From: a bacterium
GTDB taxonomy: Bacteria > Planctomycetota > Planctomycetia > Planctomycetales > Planctomycetaceae
Assembly (NCBI GenBank): GCA_016124895.1
Contig: WGMU01000022.1
Coordinates: 1 to 64,000 of the forward strand
Direction of reading: 5' to 3'
DNA length: 64,000 nucleotides
Of the stretch, positions 10,467-61,795 are shown piece by piece (within the stretch, counting starts at the first letter, position 1; each line of letters starts with the position of its first letter). The notes under the pieces are model-generated. The model had not been told where the DNA came from and made no database searches. It was given only the letters and a program-made list of their open reading frames with translations. Both the position numbers and the translations under genes were made by a program.

Positions 10467-13282
10467 ACCTGGCAGTCACGACGACCAATATCGAACACGT
10501 ATCGCTCGACGGGCCAGTCAGTCTGTCGACGGCAGTGGTGACTGGTCTGCTGTTGCTGATTGTGTTCGCCTGGTCGTTGTGGCGCGAGCGGCGGATTCTT
10601 GGCAGGAAACGCACGATCTTCTTCTGGCTGCTGCGGACGGTCACCCTGGGAACTGTGATCTGGCTGCTGCTCTCGCCGTCGCAGGTCAGAGTCGAAACGT
10701 CGACGACACGTCGTGCGGTCGCGATCGTCACTGACGTCAGCGGCAGTATGCAGACGATCGACGGAGCGGGGACGTCGGATGAAGCACGCTGGGTGGTGTC
10801 GCTGGCGGGCGATGCGAAGTATCCGGTTGCGAGATCGGCCGACCGGGCGATCGCGTCAGCGGGCGTTGCAACGCGGCATGTCCGACGAGCGGAAGCCGCG
10901 ATCCGACAGCACGCTCCGGAAAGCGATGTCGTGGCGGAGACGACGGCGGCAAGTCTCGCCCTGCAGCGGGTCCGTCTGCATCTGGAGTCAATCGAGGGGC
11001 AAACCTCGGCGAGTGTCCGGACGCGTGGTCTGGCGCGGCGGCTGATCGAAACGTCCGACGGGTCTGAGTTCCAGACCTTTCAGCGGCTGGCGGCGGATTT
11101 GCAGAAAGGCCGGCGGCCGGACGAAAAGGGCTGGCGCGAAAGTCTGCCGGATCTGGAGCTGCGGCTCGCAGGTCTCAGTCGGTCGCTGCACGAGCTGGCT
11201 CGGTACGCCGTCGAAGATGAATCGAAGCGCGTCGCGCAGCAGGACAGCGAACTGCTGACGGGAATTCGCAGGCAGTCGCGTCTGGCACAGGTGGTCAGCC
11301 TTGTCGGAAAGCTCGACCAGACAGCGTTGTCGGCTGTTCGCGAGCAGGCGGACGTACGCTTGAGCACGTTTGTGAATTCTGTCGAGCCGGTCGCCGGAGA
11401 TTCGGCTGCGGAAGAAACGCTGCGGTCGTTTGTGCGGCGCGAGGACGACGAAGCGCAGGCGGCAGTGGTGGGGACGAACCTCGCAGCGGTGTTTGAGCAG
11501 TTGAACCGGGATCGGCAGGAGCAGCCGCTGGCAGCGGTCTTTCTGTTGACCGACGTTGCCCATAACAGTGGTGAGAGCGACCCGCGTCAGGTCGCGGCGA
11601 CACTCAACGACACGCCGGTCTACGTGATTCCGGTCGGCAATACGCGGCACGTTCGCGATATCGACCTGCAGTCGGTGTTTGCCCCGTCGGTCGCGATGCG
11701 GAATGACGACGTCGTGATCGAGGCTCGCGTGCAGGCGTACGATTGCGAAGGCGAGATCTGCGTCGTGCAGTTGCTGCAGGACGGGCAGGTCATCGATTTC
11801 CGCGAGGTTGTCCTTGATTCCGGGTTCGCCCGGCGCAGCGTGCGGTTCGAGCAGCATCTGCCGGCAGTGGGCAATCAGAAGTTTCAGATTGCCGTCGTAC
11901 CGCTCGAAGGCGAGTCGACCGAGGAGAACAATTACGGCGAAGTCGACGTCAACGTCACGCGGGCGGACGTCAAAGTGCTGCTGGCGGACGAACTGCCGCG
12001 CTGGGAGTACCGCTACCTGTCGCAGTTGTTCCGTCGCGATCCGAAGATCGAATGCGACGAGTTGCTGTTTCAGCCGAGAATGATTGCAACCGGGCGGCGG
12101 GAAGAGACTCAGACATTTCCGATCACTGTCGCCGACTGGGATCAGTACGACGTGATTCTGCTCGGCGATCTGCCGCCCGAGCACCTGCCGGCTGATGTCC
12201 AGGAGTCGCTGATTGACTTCGTCAAACAGCGCGGCGGGACGCTGATCATGATTGCCGGCCATGAAGCGATGCCGCAGCAGTACGTTGATCATCCACTGCG
12301 GGAGATTCTCCCGGTGCAGACGATTGACCAGGCGGAGTGGACGACGAACGGTTACTCGTTCCGCGTGACGAACGAAGGCCGCGACCATCTGGCACTGATG
12401 ATCGGCGAGACGGAAGAAGCGACTCGAACGGCCTGGGACTTCGTCAACCGGTTCTCGCCGCTGCATGAAGTCTCGCCGTGGCGCAAGCCGCTGCCAACAG
12501 CGCATTCGCTGATTGCGGCCGTTCCGCGAGACAGTCTGGACGAGGAAGAGGCCGCGAAGTCGAGTTCGTTCCTGTGCTGGCAACCCGTCGGTAAGGGCAA
12601 AGTGATTTACCTGTCGGGACCGGACACGTACCGGCTGCGGTTTCTGCGCGGCGACCGTCTGCACTACCGGTTCTGGGGACAGCTTCTGCGGTGGACGATC
12701 GCGACGGACCTGTCGTCCGGGACGAAGTTCGTACGCGTGCGGACCGATCGGTCGCGGTATGACTCACGGGACGCGGTCAACATCTCTGTTCGGCTGACGA
12801 ATTCTGAAGGGCAGCCGGTCGATGCAGAGGGCCTTGAAGTTCGTCTGACGTCGGGCGAGGACGAACGGATGGTACTGCTGTCGCGCAGTGAAGATCAGCC
12901 GGGCGAGTACGTTGCCGAAGTTCGATCGCTGTCGCCGGGCGTTTATCGAGTCGAGCCGGTTGGTGGCGTGATCGCCGAGCTGCAGAAGGACGAATCGTTC
13001 GACGAGGCCTCGGCGAGTTTCACCGTGCAGGCCGACCTGCCGACCGAGCTGGTTGATACACGATGCGATCGGACGCTGGCTCAACAGATTGCTGACGTCA
13101 CCGGCGGCCAGGTGCTGCCGCCAACGGCCGTGTCGGAAATTATCGAGCTGACGAATCTGGAGCCGATCGTCGCGGAACGCGTCGAGTCCCGGCCGTTGTG
13201 GCTCGAATGGAAATACCTCTGGATTGTGTTTGGCTGCCTGCAGACCGAATGGGTCATTCGCAAGTGGAAGGGGCTGTCCTGA
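10463..13282 (+). CDS. Large VWA/glutamine-amidotransferase-like membrane protein
   Basis: A 939-residue protein with two N-terminal membrane helices (about 22-40 and 53-72), then a VWA-like domain with TDVSGSMQ (D91 in the MIDAS-like position). A long helical insertion of about 150 residues interrupts the VWA fold before LAAVFLLTDVAHNS. A CARDB-like stretch and a class I glutamine-amidotransferase-like fold (VKVLLADELPRWEYRYL through LIDFVKQRGGTLIMIAGHEA) follow; I see no catalytic Cys in it, so it is probably structural. A membrane-near C-terminus (WLEWKYLWIVFGCLQTEWVIRKWKG) ends the protein. It is translationally coupled to the BatA-like gene and precedes the DUF4175-like gene by 30 bases. 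Confidence 0.85.
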   Translation: MNLAVTTTNIEHVSLDGPVSLSTAVVTGLLLLIVFAWSLWRERRILGRKRTIFFWLLRTVTLGTVIWLLLSPSQVRVETSTTRRAVAIVTDVSGSMQTIDGAGTSDEARWVVSLAGDAKYPVARSADRAIASAGVATRHVRRAEAAIRQHAPESDVVAETTAASLALQRVRLHLESIEGQTSASVRTRGLARRLIETSDGSEFQTFQRLAADLQKGRRPDEKGWRESLPDLELRLAGLSRSLHELARYAVEDESKRVAQQDSELLTGIRRQSRLAQVVSLVGKLDQTALSAVREQADVRLSTFVNSVEPVAGDSAAEETLRSFVRREDDEAQAAVVGTNLAAVFEQLNRDRQEQPLAAVFLLTDVAHNSGESDPRQVAATLNDTPVYVIPVGNTRHVRDIDLQSVFAPSVAMRNDDVVIEARVQAYDCEGEICVVQLLQDGQVIDFREVVLDSGFARRSVRFEQHLPAVGNQKFQIAVVPLEGESTEENNYGEVDVNVTRADVKVLLADELPRWEYRYLSQLFRRDPKIECDELLFQPRMIATGRREETQTFPITVADWDQYDVILLGDLPPEHLPADVQESLIDFVKQRGGTLIMIAGHEAMPQQYVDHPLREILPVQTIDQAEWTTNGYSFRVTNEGRDHLALMIGETEEATRTAWDFVNRFSPLHEVSPWRKPLPTAHSLIAAVPRDSLDEEEAAKSSSFLCWQPVGKGKVIYLSGPDTYRLRFLRGDRLHYRFWGQLLRWTIATDLSSGTKFVRVRTDRSRYDSRDAVNISVRLTNSEGQPVDAEGLEVRLTSGEDERMVLLSRSEDQPGEYVAEVRSLSPGVYRVEPVGGVIAELQKDESFDEASASFTVQADLPTELVDTRCDRTLAQQIADVTGGQVLPPTAVSEIIELTNLEPIVAERVESRPLWLEWKYLWIVFGCLQTEWVIRKWKGLS

Positions 13283-54580: not shown

Positions 54581-55837
54581 TCAGTAAAGCGGCAGAATCG
54601 TCATCGGCAGGTTGAGCCGCTTTCCACCGCGGATCAGATTGATCGTGACGCGGTCTCCGGCGACGTAGTGGCGTCGGACATAGATCTCGAAGTCGTAAGC
54701 CTCCATGTCGAGCTTGCGATCATCGAACCCGAGAATGATGTCGCCGGGTTTGACGCCGGCCGGCTGAGCCTGTCGGTGAATCTTCTCTCGATGCCGAAAT
54801 GCGAGTTGCGTTGGAGTCAGGCCGAGCTGCTTGCGTTCTTTCGCAGTCAGATCGGTGCCGTAAAGGCGTGGGAGGCCGACGTACTGCTGCAGCGACGGCC
54901 GCCAGGAAATGTCCGAGCGTCTCCAGTCGGCAGGCAGATTCAGTTCGCTGGTCATCTCGCGGCCAGCTCGTTGCCAGACGATCGAAATGCGGCCCTGCTG
55001 CGGTGACCTGTCGAGTGCGAACTGAGCATCGGCGATAGAACGCACGCGGAAGCCGTTCAGCGAGTCGATCAGGTCGTCGGTCTGCAGCCCTGATTGCTCA
55101 GCGGGCGAATCGGCCACAATCCGCGTGACTTCGTTGCCGCGATCGATGTTCAGCGAGAATCCGACATTTTCCGTTGGCGGATACCGGAACAGGTCCGACT
55201 GCTTCCAGACGCCTGTGGATTGAGCTTCCTCACGGAGAATCTCTTTGACGTCGTGGCAGTGAATGCAGCCGCGTCGCTCGCGCGAGGCTTCGAGATCGCG
55301 AATCCACAAAGGTTCGTGCTGCGGAGCGACCGGTTGTTCGGCGGCTGCAGGCACGCTGCGACTTCGGTGCAGAGTCTGCGCTGTCTGCATCGCGTATCGC
55401 AGTCCGGCCAGCGACTGTAGCGACTCGGCGCTCAGCGCGTTGCGGGCGCCGTAACGGCCGAGAATCTGCTGCTGTCCGTCGATGAAGAAGATCGCAAACG
55501 TCTGGTCGTAATCGAACTCGAAGATGCGCAGGTCAGAGTGCTCGATCTGGGTCAGGCGAACGAGAACGAAGTCCTCAGCGAGATCGCTGATCTGGTCGAG
55601 ACGAACAACCTGCTCGTCGAATTCACGGCAGTCCAGTCAGGGAACGCAGCGAAAAACCAGCATGATTGGCTTACTCTCCCGCTGAGCCGTCGCCAGAGCA
55701 CCGCGGTAATCGCCGGTCCAGAGACGCTCGGGATTACGTCGCGTCTCAGGCTGTGCAAACGAGGACGCCGGTGTGATCAGTAGAAAAGCAAACAGCAGGG
55801 CGAGCGGCAGTCCGCGCAGAATACGATCGAGAATCAT
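54581..55837 (-). CDS. Trx-like/PDZ selenoprotein candidate with in-frame UGA
   Basis: One frame from ATG 55837 to the stop at 54581 encodes 418 residues if the UGA at 55637-55639 is read as selenocysteine 67. A signal peptide covers about residues 1-28. A thioredoxin-like domain follows (RGALATAQRESKPIMLVFRCVP-U-LDCREFDE); the UGA falls in C64-x-x-U67-x-x-C70, where redox-active Cys is expected. IFEFDYDQTFAIFFIDG and QILGRYG continue the fold after the UGA. CIHCH at 191-195 is a haem c-type motif. PDZ domains cover about 223-300 and 350-412. A SECIS-like hairpin follows the UGA at 55600-55618. I recall a planctomycete Trx7/PDZ (seleno)protein family that fits. The gene lies 19 bases downstream of a DUF1501 gene. 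Read without recoding it would appear as two broken pieces. Confidence 0.8.
55600..55618 (-). promoter_or_regulatory. SECIS-like hairpin after the in-frame UGA
   Basis: Reading the minus strand, GACGAGC (19-25 bases after the UGA) pairs with GTTCGTC (31-37), giving seven pairs with one G-U, around the loop AGGTT. Bacterial SECIS elements have a short stem, a 4-6 base loop containing G and U (AGGUCU in E. coli fdhF), placed roughly 16-37 bases past the UGA. This matches all three points. It would bind SelB. Confidence 0.65.
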
Positions 55838-55856: not shown

Positions 55857-57239
55857 TTACGAGAACAGCTCGTCGATCGGACGGCCAGAAGGCAGCACCT
55901 TGATCGGACGACCGGCTCGATTGAGATAGTGCGTTTCGGTGTCGACGCCGACGTGCCGGTAAATCGTCGCGAGCACGTCCTGAGGCGTCTTCGGATTCTC
56001 CAGCGGGAAGGCCGCCTTCGAGTCCGAGGATCCGACAACTCGACCGCCCTGAACACCGCCGCCAGCGATTGCTGCTCCAAAAACGTTGGGATAATGATCC
56101 CGGCCAGCGTCCTTGTTGACGCGCGGCGTGCGGCCAAATTCGCCCCAGGCAACGACCAATGTCTTTTCCAGCAGGCCGCGCTGATCGAGATCCTCGATCA
56201 GCGCCGAGTATGCCTGATCGAACCGCGGCAGGAATCCGCGGCGCAGCGAATCGAAGCCCAGCACGTGCGTGTCCCACCAGCGGAGATCGACCGTGACCAG
56301 TCGGACGCCAGCTTCAACGAGTCGCCGCGCGAGCAGCATGCGCTGGCTCCAGGCCGGAGCACCGCAGCGGTTCGAGGCTCCGGGATCGAACCGCGGCATG
56401 AAACCGTACCGTTCCCGGATAGCCTGCGGTTCGGCGTCGAGATCGAAGGCGGCTCGCGCTCGGTCCGTCGAGAGCATCCGCCAGGCCATCTGCTGGAAGT
56501 TGTCCATCCCGTCCATCATTCCCGATTGATCGACGTTGCGTTTGAGCTGGTCGAAGCCGGTCAGCAGATCGCGGCGGTTGCCGAAGCGGTCGAGCGAAAT
56601 GCCGTCGGCGAGTGCGAAGTTCGGCACAGAGAACGGACCTTCGTTGGCCGGATCGTTGAGTGTCTCAAACGGACGGCAGGCGACGCCCAAATAGGCGGAG
56701 TCGGTGCCCGGCACCTGCCGCGGGATCATCACGTACGCCGGCAGTTCGGGCGTCAGATGCTGAAGCTGCTTCGCGACGATCGACCCGCAACTTGGATGAA
56801 TGTTCTCGTCGGGGTTTGTTCCGCGGTCGTAGCCCGTGAAGCAAATCTGGTCGGCGGCCGAATGTCCGGCGTCGTGGTGATGTAGACTGCGGAGGATCGA
56901 CCACTTGTCCTGAATCGCGGCGCAGTGTGGCAGCATGTCGGAGAGTTGAATCCCCGGCACGTTCGTACTCATCGTGCCGAACTCGCCGCGGTACTCGACC
57001 GGCGCCTGCGGTTTTGGATCCCACATGTCCTGATGCGCCGGTCCTCCGCGCATCCAGAGGATGATCACGGAGTTTTCCGTTTTCAATTCGCCACGCGCCG
57101 CTTCCGCTCGCAGTACGTCGGTCAGATTCAGCCCGCAACCGCCGAGCCCGAGCACTCCGGCTTTGAGAAACTCACGGCGACTGGAACCCAGCTTCCGGCG
57201 GAATTGGGAGCAGCCGGCGACAGAACGAGACTTTGACAT
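55857..57239 (-). CDS. DUF1501 family protein, Tat-exported
   Basis: A 460-residue protein from ATG 57239 (MSKSRSVAGC); the frame extends upstream to 57509 but that part is not protein-like and overlaps the promoter of the divergent dehydrogenase. The Tat signal is SSRREFLKAGVLGLGGCGLNL. SVIILWMRGGPAHQDMWDPKP, SLHHHDAGHSAADQICFTGY, WAWGEFGRTP-like VVAWGEFGRTPRVN and AGRDHYPNVF are the DUF1501 signature motifs. It belongs to the alkaline-phosphatase-like fold group with unknown substrate. The selenoprotein candidate follows 19 bases downstream, so they are probably co-transcribed; no DUF1549/1553 partner is adjacent, unlike the first DUF1501 gene in this window. Confidence 0.92.
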   Translation of the reverse strand: MSKSRSVAGCSQFRRKLGSSRREFLKAGVLGLGGCGLNLTDVLRAEAARGELKTENSVIILWMRGGPAHQDMWDPKPQAPVEYRGEFGTMSTNVPGIQLSDMLPHCAAIQDKWSILRSLHHHDAGHSAADQICFTGYDRGTNPDENIHPSCGSIVAKQLQHLTPELPAYVMIPRQVPGTDSAYLGVACRPFETLNDPANEGPFSVPNFALADGISLDRFGNRRDLLTGFDQLKRNVDQSGMMDGMDNFQQMAWRMLSTDRARAAFDLDAEPQAIRERYGFMPRFDPGASNRCGAPAWSQRMLLARRLVEAGVRLVTVDLRWWDTHVLGFDSLRRGFLPRFDQAYSALIEDLDQRGLLEKTLVVAWGEFGRTPRVNKDAGRDHYPNVFGAAIAGGGVQGGRVVGSSDSKAAFPLENPKTPQDVLATIYRHVGVDTETHYLNRAGRPIKVLPSGRPIDELFS

Positions 57240-57421
57240 GAGGGCAGGCCAGCGATGAGGAACGTTGGGGGGAGAGGGCGGGACAGGAATGCAGACGGAA
57301 ACCGTATCGAGCTGAAGTCGCTGGCGACAACAGGGATTCACTTTTCCCTGTCTCGATTCGCTCGACCGCGGTGATTCAAACTGCGACCCTATCAGTTTTT
57401 CGAGGTGTTTTTCGGTGGCTG

Positions 57422-57427
57422 TATACT
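57422..57427 (+). promoter_or_regulatory. Possible -10 box of the dehydrogenase gene
   Basis: TATACT lies 38 bases before ATG 57465 in the region divergent from the DUF1501 gene. The T-rich stretch about 17 bases upstream is a poor -35, so only the -10 match supports it. Confidence 0.3.
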
Positions 57428-57464
57428 GAACTGAAACATTGAGGAAGACGACAGGAAATCTGGA

Positions 57465-58271
57465 ATGCCAGAAAGCAGACCAACTGGAGCCGTCAGCTTT
57501 GATAACCACGGACGAGTGGTGCTTGTCAGTGGCGGGGCGATGGGGATTGGGCGTGCCATCTGTGAGGCATATTTCGAAAGCGGCGCGTCAGTCGTTTGCC
57601 TCGATGTCGACGTGGACGCGGCTGAGTCTCTGCCAGGGGAGATCGCGTTTGTGCGTGGTGATACTTCGGCCGAAGACGACTGTCGGAACGCGGTCGGGTT
57701 CGCTGTCGAGAAGTTCGGGACGATCGACGTGCTGGTGAACAACGCGGCGATTCAGCCAAATGCGTCCTACGTGCCGATGCACGAGTTTCCGACGGACTTG
57801 TGGGAGCGGATGGTCGGGATCAATTTCTCGGGATATGCGTTTCTCGCGAAGCACGGGCTGCCGGTGATGCTCGCTCAGCAGTCGGGCGTGATTGTCAACA
57901 TCGCCAGCGGACAGGGGCACAGGACGGCTCGCGAAGTGGCGGCGTATGGGCCGATCAAGGCCGCCAATCTGATGCAGACGAGGCAGTGGGGCGTCGAGTA
58001 CGCGCGGCAGGGGATTCGCGTTGTGTCAGTCTCGCCAGGCTGCATCAACACGCCGATGGTGCAGGCGACTTTGGCCGAGCAGGGCGGGGAAGCGAAGATC
58101 GCCAACCGGCATCCACTCGGCCGGATTGGCCAGCCGGAGGAAGTCGCGGCGGCCGTACTATTTCTGGCGAGTTCCGCGGCAGCGTTTGTGACTGGGACGG
58201 ATCTCGAAGTCGACGGCGGTCTCGGAGCCTTCGCGGCGTTTGCGGAACCGTATCCAATCACGGACCTGTAG
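57465..58271 (+). CDS. Short-chain dehydrogenase/reductase (SDR)
   Basis: A 268-residue classical SDR. The cofactor motif is SGGAMGIG at residues 22-29 (Ser in place of the usual Thr), CLDVDVDAAESL follows with Asp at the end of beta 2, suggesting NAD preference, and NNAA is present. The catalytic residues are S148, Y161 and K165 (YGPIK), and SVSPGCINTPM with GGLGAF closes the fold. The substrate is unknown. It is transcribed away from the DUF1501 gene and is followed after 35 bases by the SUI1-like gene, perhaps on one transcript. Confidence 0.92.
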   Translation: MPESRPTGAVSFDNHGRVVLVSGGAMGIGRAICEAYFESGASVVCLDVDVDAAESLPGEIAFVRGDTSAEDDCRNAVGFAVEKFGTIDVLVNNAAIQPNASYVPMHEFPTDLWERMVGINFSGYAFLAKHGLPVMLAQQSGVIVNIASGQGHRTAREVAAYGPIKAANLMQTRQWGVEYARQGIRVVSVSPGCINTPMVQATLAEQGGEAKIANRHPLGRIGQPEEVAAAVLFLASSAAAFVTGTDLEVDGGLGAFAAFAEPYPITDL

Positions 58272-58648: not shown

Positions 58649-58933
58649 AAATACCGACAGCCGAGTTGTCAGCCTTACGCAACGCGAAGGGACACGCTGG
58701 CCGTTGACAGGCATTTTGCCGGCCCGATAGCTTCGCTCTGCGGTCGCGGCGAACCAGTCTACGGAGCCGCGAACTGTTCTTTTCGTCCGGCTGGCGATGG
58801 CCGGACAAGCTGACGCCCCGACGCGGCGTCGATCAGTTCCTTGTCCGTCCTTATTGTTTCCGAGCGGTGACTCAGCGGCGTACTTCTGCGGCGAGTCGTG
58901 ATACCGGCTCTGTCCAGCTACTGGAGTCCGTCC
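58649..58933. other. Intergenic region before the multihaem cytochrome
   Basis: About 285 bases without a recognisable gene. Frames crossing it are Arg-rich and unlike protein. It presumably holds the promoter for the cytochrome gene and the end of the SUI1 transcript; I saw no strong terminator or promoter. Confidence 0.4.
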
Positions 58934-61795
58934 ATGCCCGAGCCCCCTCTGCCGGAGCCGTCTGTGTCTTCTTCGACGTCGATTCTGCCGACTTCGACAT
59001 CGCCCCGCCGGTACACGCCGGCTGTGAGTCCGCGGTTGAAGAAACTGCTGTATGTCGTGTTTGGGCTGGTCGCTCTGCTGGTCGCCAATGCGGCCTATCT
59101 GTCGAGCATCACCGTCATGGAGTGGAGCAGCGGCGAGACATACCAGAACTATTTCTACCAGTACATGTTTCTGGCTCACCTGGTACTCGGGTTGCTGCTG
59201 GCCGTGCCGCTGGTCGTGTTTGGTACGGTTCACATGCTGGCCTCGAAGGATCGCCGAAACCGTCGGGCGGTCCGTATCGGGTACGTTCTGTTTGCGGCAT
59301 CAATCGTCGTGCTCGTCACGGGCGTTCTGCTGATGCGGATTGGCGGCTTCGATCTGAAGCAGCCGATGGCTCGCAGCACGGTCTACTGGCTGCATGTGAT
59401 CGTGCCGATCGTCGCCGCGTGGCTGTACTGGCTGCACCGGCTGGCAGGGCCGCGGATCAAGTGGCGGATTGGCCTGACGTATGGAGCATTCGTCGCGGCG
59501 GTCGTCGGAGGAATGGTCGTGTTTCACTCGGGCGACCCGCGTGGCTGGGGAGCGGTCGGTCCGGAATCCGGCGTCAAATACTTCGAGCCGTCGCTGGCCC
59601 GTACGTCGAGCGGCAACTTCATTCCAGCCCGCTCGCTGATGAACGACCAGTATTGCCTGAAGTGCCATGCCGACGTGCATGCCGGCTGGAAGGACAGCGT
59701 CCACCGCTTCAGTTCGTTCAACAATCCGCCGTACCTGGCCAGTGTGCAGGAAACCCGCGAAATCGCGCTGAAACGCGATGGCAACGTGCAGGCGTCCCGC
59801 TGGTGTGCCGGCTGTCATGATCCGGTGCCGTTCTTCAGTGGCGCATTCGACGATCCGAACTTTGACATGCTGAAGCACGCGACGTCGCAGGCCGGCATTA
59901 CATGCACCGTCTGCCACGCGATCACGAACGTGAACAGCAACCGCGGGAACGCCGACTATACGATCGAAGAGCCCCTGCATTACCCGTTCGCGTACAGCGA
60001 CAACGCCGTGCTGCAGTGGGTCAATAATCAACTCGTCAAGGCGAAGCCGTCGTTCCACAAGAAGACGTTCCTGAAGCCGCTGCACAAGACGGCCGAGTTC
60101 TGTTCCGGCTGCCACAAGGTGCATCTGCCGAAAGAGCTGAACCACTACAAGGAATTTCTCCGCGGGCAGAATCACTACGACCCGTATCTCTTCAGCGGTG
60201 TCTCCGGGCACGGAGCCCGCAGCTTCTATTATCCGCCGAAGGCTCAGCACAACTGCAACGGCTGTCACATGCCGTTGCAGGCTTCGGACGACTTCGGAGC
60301 GAAGTTTTTCGGCGACGCGAAGGAACTGAGCATTCACAGCCATCTGTTTCCGTCGGCGAATACGGGCATTGCCTGGCTGCGTGACCGGCCGGAAGTCATC
60401 GAGGCGCACCGGAAATTCAACGAGGGCGTGATACGCGTCGACATTTTCGGCGTCCGCGAGGGCGGCGAGATCGACGGTAAGCTGACCGCGCCCCTGCGAC
60501 CGGAGGTGCCGACACTCAAGCCAGGCTCGAAAGTGCTGCTCGAAACCGTTATCCGCACGCTGAAGATGGGCCACCTGTTTACTCAGGGCACCGTCGACTC
60601 GAACGAAGTCTGGCTCGACGTGACGGTCCGCAGCGGCGACCGGATCATTGGGCGCAGCGGAGCGATCGACGACGCACGACACCGTGAAGTCGATCCGTGG
60701 TCGCACTTCGTCAACGTCTTCATGCTCGACCGCGATGGCAACCGGGTCGACCGCCGCAACGCGCAGGACATCTTCACGCCGCTTTATAACCATCAGATTC
60801 CGCCGGGCGCCGGCCAGACCGTGCATTATGAGCTGCAGCTTCCAGACGAACTGGTCGCGCCGGTCACAGTCGAGTTGAAGCTCCAGTATCGGAAGTTTGA
60901 CCAGCGTTACATGGAAGTTGTCGCGGAGACGAATGCGAAGCTCGGGCGGATGATCCGAGGGCACAAACCCGGCCAGCCGTACGAAAACGAATTGCCGATT
61001 CTTACGCTGGCTGAAGACCGAGTGACGTTTCCGGTTGAAGGTGTCGAGACCGCCGTCGAAAACCCCGAGGTCAAGTTTCCGGTCTGGCAACGCTGGAACG
61101 ATTACGGCATCGGACTGCTGCTCAAAGGTAAGGCCGAACTGCGGCAGGCGACGGAGGCGTTTACCGAGGTCGAGAATCTGAATCGCTGGGACGGTCCGAT
61201 GAATCTCGCACGGGTTTACAACACGGAAGGCCGGCTCGCTGACGCTGTCGCGGCACTGCAGCGAGCGACGGCGTTTGAAAACGAGTCTGGCTATCCCCGC
61301 TGGACCTGGGCGTGGCTCAGCGGCGACGTCAACCGCCAGCAGGGACGACTGACCGACGCCGTCAACAACCTGCGCAGCGTGCTCGAAGACAGCACTCCGG
61401 ACATGCAGCAGCGAGAGTTTGACTTCAGCCTCGACATCAAGGTCATCAACCTGCTGGGGCAGACGTTGTTCGACCTTGGCCGACTGCGAGCCCGGCAGGG
61501 TCGCGAAGACGAAGCGCAGCAGCACTGGCAGGACGCGGTTGTTCAGTTTGAAAGGACCCTGACGATCGATTCCGAAGACGTCGCCGCCCACTTCAACCTG
61601 CAGCTTCTGTATGCGGAACTCGGTGACGAAGAAAAGTCGACCGAGCACGCGCGCCTGCACGCTCGTTACAAACCTGACGACAACGCTCAGGGCAGGGCGG
61701 TGCGTCTGGCTCGCGAGAAGTACCCGGCGGCGAATCACGCGGCCGAAGCAGTGGTGAAGTACCCACTGCAGCGCGAAGGAGCACCGGGACAGTGA
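58934..61795 (+). CDS. Membrane-anchored pentahaem c-type cytochrome with TPR-like C-terminus
   Basis: A 953-residue protein from ATG 58934, which has GGAG seven bases upstream; GTG 58898 is less likely. Four hydrophobic helices occupy about residues 35-60, 80-105, 115-135 and 150-200, with paired His residues that may bind haem b. Five CxxCH motifs follow at residues 241, 291, 324, 390 and 441 (CLKCH, CAGCH, CTVCH, CSGCH, CNGCH). A beta-rich part lies at about 500-690. The last 250 residues hold TPR-like repeats (AVAALQRATAFENES, AVVQFERTLTIDSEDVAAHFNLQLLYAELGDEEKS). It should move electrons between the membrane and the periplasm. The CRTAC1-type gene follows after 182 bases. Confidence 0.88.
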   Translation: MPEPPLPEPSVSSSTSILPTSTSPRRYTPAVSPRLKKLLYVVFGLVALLVANAAYLSSITVMEWSSGETYQNYFYQYMFLAHLVLGLLLAVPLVVFGTVHMLASKDRRNRRAVRIGYVLFAASIVVLVTGVLLMRIGGFDLKQPMARSTVYWLHVIVPIVAAWLYWLHRLAGPRIKWRIGLTYGAFVAAVVGGMVVFHSGDPRGWGAVGPESGVKYFEPSLARTSSGNFIPARSLMNDQYCLKCHADVHAGWKDSVHRFSSFNNPPYLASVQETREIALKRDGNVQASRWCAGCHDPVPFFSGAFDDPNFDMLKHATSQAGITCTVCHAITNVNSNRGNADYTIEEPLHYPFAYSDNAVLQWVNNQLVKAKPSFHKKTFLKPLHKTAEFCSGCHKVHLPKELNHYKEFLRGQNHYDPYLFSGVSGHGARSFYYPPKAQHNCNGCHMPLQASDDFGAKFFGDAKELSIHSHLFPSANTGIAWLRDRPEVIEAHRKFNEGVIRVDIFGVREGGEIDGKLTAPLRPEVPTLKPGSKVLLETVIRTLKMGHLFTQGTVDSNEVWLDVTVRSGDRIIGRSGAIDDARHREVDPWSHFVNVFMLDRDGNRVDRRNAQDIFTPLYNHQIPPGAGQTVHYELQLPDELVAPVTVELKLQYRKFDQRYMEVVAETNAKLGRMIRGHKPGQPYENELPILTLAEDRVTFPVEGVETAVENPEVKFPVWQRWNDYGIGLLLKGKAELRQATEAFTEVENLNRWDGPMNLARVYNTEGRLADAVAALQRATAFENESGYPRWTWAWLSGDVNRQQGRLTDAVNNLRSVLEDSTPDMQQREFDFSLDIKVINLLGQTLFDLGRLRARQGREDEAQQHWQDAVVQFERTLTIDSEDVAAHFNLQLLYAELGDEEKSTEHARLHARYKPDDNAQGRAVRLAREKYPAANHAAEAVVKYPLQREGAPGQ

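Follow-up and report, generated by a model that had tools for sequence, protein, structure and literature searches.

An in-frame TGA in a planctomycete thioredoxin/PDZ gene that is almost certainly decoded as selenocysteine

Background

Does the single TGA inside a minus-strand thioredoxin/PDZ reading frame of a planctomycete contig end the gene, or is it read as selenocysteine (Sec)? The original prediction, made on the 64,000-nucleotide stretch of DNA analysed here (the window), favoured a selenoprotein and pointed to an annotated Trx7/PDZ (seleno)protein family. Genes of this kind may be split or cut short by standard gene calling. NF041199 appears in a 2026 review among the selenoprotein families, with the motif CxxU and one Sec (PMC13188914). 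Judging from their tables, a 2022 review entry ("PDZ domain-containing protein, pfam13899, CxxU"; PMC9312934) and an entry of the 2008 Global Ocean Sampling study ("putative secreted serine protease MucD", with two selenoprotein sequences; PMC2398784) apparently denote the same family.

Results

A single TGA in an otherwise open frame

Retranslation of the minus strand from 55837 to 54581 reproduced the predicted frame, with the TGA at codon 67 (55639-55637) as its sole internal stop and a terminal TGA (Table 1). The surrounding residues are R-C64-V-P-U67-L-D-C70. No in-frame ATG, GTG or TTG follows before the ATG at 55390, 83 codons downstream, which agrees with the next in-frame ATG described originally, and beyond the TGA the frame stays intact and coding-like for 351 codons. 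Screening of both strands of the window (2121 TGAs) for TGAs with at least 60 open codons on each side left 125; judged by how coding-like the codon usage is on either side, the codon-67 TGA came out top. The runner-up (13280, plus strand) proved to be a normal junction between two genes, with the next ATG 30 nt further on, and was rejected.

Table 1. Features of the locus, in window coordinates
Feature	Position	Strand	Evidence
Trx7/PDZ selenoprotein gene (almost certain)	54581..55837	-	translation, 418 aa with Sec67; NF041199, 414.2 bits against a cut-off of 300
TGA codon 67, almost certainly read as selenocysteine	55637..55639	-	Cys or Sec in 100/100 homologues
C64, invariant Cys, or Sec in double-Sec relatives	55646..55648	-	Cys/Sec in 100/100
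C70, usual third thiol of the triad	55628..55630	-	kept in 95/100
Bacterial SECIS hairpin within the coding sequence	55600..55618	-	8 bp, loop GGU at 55610-55608
N-terminal signal peptide, predicted (residues 1-29)	55751..55837	-	MILDRILRGLPLALLFAFLLITPASSFAQ, by eye from sequence
Thioredoxin_7 domain (residues 40-120)	55478..55720	-	Pfam PF13899, 2.5e-14
CIHCH (residues 191-195), possible haem-c-type or metal motif	55253..55267	-	C191, H193, C194 and H195 invariant in 100/100
PDZ domain 1 (residues 217-290)	54968..55189	-	Pfam PDZ / PDZ_6; DegP-type by sequence
PDZ domain 2 (residues 357-410)	54608..54769	-	Pfam PDZ_2; HtrA-family PDZ match, Z 13.5
DUF1501 gene, directly upstream	55857..57509	-	PF07394, 312.8 bits; stop 19 nt before ATG

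The protein matches the NF041199 profile from residue 40 to 413 (profile positions 3-389 of 390), and the Sec or Cys in a CxxU or CxxC of the Trx domain that marks this family is found in C64-V-P-U67. The gene is thus a new member of a known family, since it scores above the cut-off of a profile that the reviews already list, and the Trx7/PDZ family named in the original prediction does exist. Over its full length, in its domains and in the position of Sec it shows no essential difference from NF041199. VPGUxxT thioredoxin-like selenoproteins (NF041382/NF041383) and TsoB (NF045694) are also Trx-like proteins with Sec and match weakly over the Trx part, but the protein falls far below their cut-offs and, by name, they have T at the third position or another layout; no NF041383 member above the cut-off was found in the window's genome.

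Decoding machinery and conservation of the codon

The genome of the window (8.13 Mb, 99.8% complete) encodes the Sec machinery that the original prediction had named as a check. Profile searches found selA (500 bits), selB (325 bits, or 356 with a second piece joined) and selD (261 bits) above their cut-offs, together with a tRNA-Sec gene (selC; 73.8 bits, also above cut-off) that ARAGORN reports as tRNA-SeC with anticodon TCA.

We surveyed 392 planctomycete genomes, 110 of which carry at least one member above the NF041199 cut-off, and sampled 80 stretches plus 16 loci from named genomes and the window, giving 100 distinct members. In-frame TGAs occur in these only at codons 67 and 64 (window numbering), and both codons are Cys or Sec throughout; UGA thus alternates with Cys at exactly the codon predicted. 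The triads are UxxUxxC (36), CxxUxxC (31), CxxCxxC (28) and CxxUxxG (2), with UxxUxxS, UxxUxxF and UxxUxxA once each; five members thus have G, A, S or F in place of C70. The C-x-x-U-x-x-C pattern pointed out beforehand is therefore present, while the conserved unit is the triad C64-xx-U67-xx-C70 and not a pair. Sec is found in 72 members, 39 of them with two Sec, and never at codon 64 without Sec at codon 67 (0/100).

The Sec form goes together with the decoding machinery: selA is present in 67 of the 73 genomes with a Sec form vs 10 of the 37 with Cys forms only (Fisher p 5e-12, related genomes not being independent). The six Sec-form genomes that lack selA are MAGs, mostly incomplete. Mapped on the family tree, Sec vs Cys takes 3 changes, and the three states take 17, as single- and double-Sec forms interconvert often. 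The gene of the window clusters with two MAG sequences (L051 and L052), and the two Cys paralogues of the same genome (in L067 and L068) lie in distant parts of the tree. Among the matches listed for the 28 genomes of the window's taxonomic family, no other member has the TGA, a lone case that may be due to differential loss or to lateral transfer.

A SECIS hairpin kept in Sec forms and lost in Cys forms

The bacterial SECIS model describes a loop of 3-9 nt with G in the first two positions on a stem of 4-16 bp, 16-37 nt after the UGA (PMC13188914). The hairpin GACGAGCAGGTTGTTCGTC (55618-55600), which begins 18 nt past the TGA, agrees with this model in its GGU loop, which starts 26 nt after the TGA, and its 8-bp stem (-9.9 kcal/mol, z = -2.9). 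Rfam gave no match at the locus.

Because the hairpin lies in coding sequence, we set each gene against synonymous versions of itself, generated according to its codon usage, with the 19-nt hairpin kept fixed. Single-Sec genes keep 6.3 of the 8 stem pairs vs 4.5 expected (combined z 12) and double-Sec genes 7.05 vs 4.8 (combined z 18), z values that overstate significance since related sequences were taken as independent; Cys forms keep 1.7 of 8 vs 2.0 expected. The contrast between Sec and Cys forms is not explained by sequence kinship. Pair 5-15 occurs as G-C, C-G, A-T and G-T, a compensatory change. A few single-Sec genes of one clade (L069, L071, L075, L077, L080 and L087) miss the exact register of the hairpin, and most of them form a shorter hairpin there. 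In two Cys forms nested in a Sec clade (L055 and L063) the hairpin has decayed, as expected for a recent Sec-to-Cys replacement, which they probably represent. An earlier test on a 45-nt stretch gave no information, probably owing to competition from adjacent bases during folding.

The SECIS also shapes protein sequence: FDGQVVR is a stretch that typifies Sec forms and has largely disappeared from Cys forms. In double-Sec genes the same loop stands 35 nt after the first UGA, within the accepted range.

Taken at the level of sequence, this is almost certainly a genuine selenoprotein gene in which the apparent stop at codon 67 is decoded as selenocysteine; the selenoprotein candidacy proposed for the locus is supported by the machinery, the homologues, the SECIS and the co-occurrence with selA. 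Two other accounts of the TGA have to be weighed. A pseudogene, in which a Cys codon has mutated to a true stop, or a sequencing error at that codon would fit an in-frame stop that splits the gene and the two uninterrupted paralogues in the same genome, but we regard both as very unlikely: TGA stands at codon 67 in 71 other members, the remaining frame is intact as described, and L051 and L052, independent MAGs whose proteins are about 50% identical, have the same TGA codon and the same hairpin, which for practical purposes excludes a sequencing error. Reading of UGA by other means, through reassignment of TGA in the genome or unspecific suppression, would equally leave the frame open on either side of the TGA; this has next to nothing to recommend it, as TGA terminates the gene itself and the gene at 13282, a tRNA-Sec with anticodon TCA is encoded, and the SECIS hairpin is specifically conserved.

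Domains and fold

The Thioredoxin_7 match spans the TGA, in accordance with the claim that both flanks belong to one thioredoxin-like fold, and both expected PDZ domains were recovered by Pfam (Table 1). Pfam gives Trx and PDZ domains only, with no trypsin-like protease domain. The N-terminus MILDRILRGLPLALLFAFLLITPASSFAQ has, on inspection, a basic beginning, a hydrophobic core and a polar end, and the protein is probably exported.

An AlphaFold2 model built from 51 sequences of the family loci reached a mean pLDDT of 89 and a pTM of 0.87, and was compared with known folds by VIA-align, a comparison that spans Foldseek's own list. Residues 7-132 resemble AGR2/AGR3, ERp19 (TXNDC12) and an exported DsbD-type C-terminal domain, with Z scores of about 12-13 across 115-120 residues; the last of these, 3f9u, is annotated as cytochrome c biogenesis-related and gave Z 12.7. 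These proteins have the Trx-like fold and the aligned active site in common with ours, whereas Sec, the upstream C64, the PDZ domains and CxHCH are absent from those compared. In the alignment with AGR2, U67 takes the place of the first, nucleophilic Cys of the classical CxxC/CxxS, as the original prediction supposed, C70 that of the second, and C64 stands just before. That the reviews spell the motif CxxU is due to C64, its invariant neighbour.

The second half of the model resembles the HtrA-type PDZ domains of DegP/DegQ/AlgW, in agreement with the sequence. Our protein has two PDZ domains of the same type as DegP/DegQ/MucD but not the protease domain of the HtrA proteases, and the old family name "MucD" is misleading.

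Between the Trx and PDZ halves lies CIHCH, in which C191, H193, C194 and H195 are all invariant in the 100 members. Haem c is normally attached at CxxCH, and a plain motif of this type needs no His at the second x; an invariant inner His, as read from the alignment, is unusual for a plain haem c site. The CxxCH in an exported protein by which c-type cytochromes are recognised is found here as CIHCH behind the signal peptide seen by eye. Pfam gave no cytochrome profile match up to E = 1, and short haem segments often lack a profile. Among the 100 members no other His or Met is fully invariant as a second haem ligand, H157 being kept in 88%. The haem label comes from the CIHCH motif; haem at this site is possible, and a metal site is a fair rival.

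Discussion

Proposed role and alternatives

The protein is likely an exported selenol-thiol oxidoreductase that holds clients via its two DegP-type PDZ domains. SelB and tRNA-Sec, guided by the hairpin 26 nt downstream, almost certainly insert selenocysteine at UGA 67, as the comparative evidence shows; this would place it at the N-terminal nucleophilic position of a thioredoxin-like active site. There U67 may alternate between its free selenol state and a selenenylsulfide formed with C64 or C70, and so reduce, isomerise or detoxify substrates outside the cytoplasm. The PDZ domains, with no protease attached, would hold or recruit a client protein, and CxHCH between the halves may bind haem c or a metal and exchange electrons with the selenol site, or serve in redox sensing. 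Taken as a whole, this account of an exported Trx7/PDZ selenoprotein with selenol-thiol redox chemistry, client holding by PDZ and a CxHCH haem or metal relay or sensor appears to us very probable. A more specific version, a selenol-haem or selenol-metal oxidoreductase in which the triad C/U-xx-U-xx-C and the invariant CxHCH work in one PDZ-tethered exported chain, many lineages having been upgraded to two Sec with one SECIS hairpin, is put forward tentatively and is rather doubtful.

Quite possibly, the same selenoprotein instead binds Zn, Cu or Fe at CxHCH or uses it to hold its structure, and is a PDZ-tethered selenol-disulfide oxidoreductase or peroxidase with no relay. The invariance of the inner His, the lack of another invariant axial ligand and of a cytochrome profile match argue for this reading; the identity of CxxCH with the standard haem c motif, the probable export, the cytochrome c assembly proteins encoded in the genome and H157, which could serve as sixth ligand, speak against it. 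A role in cytochrome c biogenesis, in which the protein, like CcmG, ResA or the DsbD C-terminal domain, would maintain in reduced form the CxxCH cysteines of the many cytochromes of planctomycetes, could account for the likeness of the Trx half to 3f9u and for the PSCyt1/PSD1 cytochrome genes near some members. It seems improbable to us, given that the neighbourhood is not above background and no partner is conserved across lineages.

Genomic context

The DUF1501 gene upstream ends so close to the start codon that the two genes are probably co-transcribed, and the Cys paralogue in L067 likewise follows a DUF1501 gene. Near family members, DUF1501 was found at 10 of 97 loci and PSCyt/PSD1 at 20 of 97. 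The 8.1-Mb genome of the window holds at least 127 DUF1501 copies, and one in about a fifth of random 14-kb stretches is expected by chance; the adjoining gene is therefore not evidence of function. With DUF1501 this abundant we claim no enrichment, and the neighbourhood was dropped as a guide to function. Other recurring neighbours reflect synteny within one clade, and since neighbours are not conserved past close relatives, the context names no partner. Elsewhere in the window (58898-61795, plus strand) is a protein of 965 aa that has a membrane part at its N-terminus, five CxxCH and TPR-like repeats at its C-terminus, and no NCBIfam match.

The double-Sec form

The selenoprotein family is known; its double-Sec form, its SECIS-shaped protein sequence and its invariant CxHCH are less documented. 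Unlike NF041199 as published (CxxU, one Sec), 39 of the 72 Sec-form relatives have two Sec, mostly as UxxUxxC, and a literature search for "UxxUxxC" found nothing. A single SECIS within range of each UGA (26 nt and 35 nt away) and a first UGA that never stands alone make a testable statement on the origin of the double-Sec form. The genome of the window also carries Cys paralogues, which allows a direct test of what Sec gains over Cys.

UxxUxxC members are about as common as single-Sec members, where the reviews list one Sec. Members with two TGAs nine bases apart include those in L070 (6001-7137), L120, L112, L140, L143 and others; L076 also has UxxUxxC. A contig labelled Verrucomicrobia (L064) carries a member nested among planctomycete sequences, by lateral transfer or misbinning of the contig. 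Several genomes have two family members in tandem (L140, L143 and L098), and in L098 a single-Sec member is paired with a double-Sec one.
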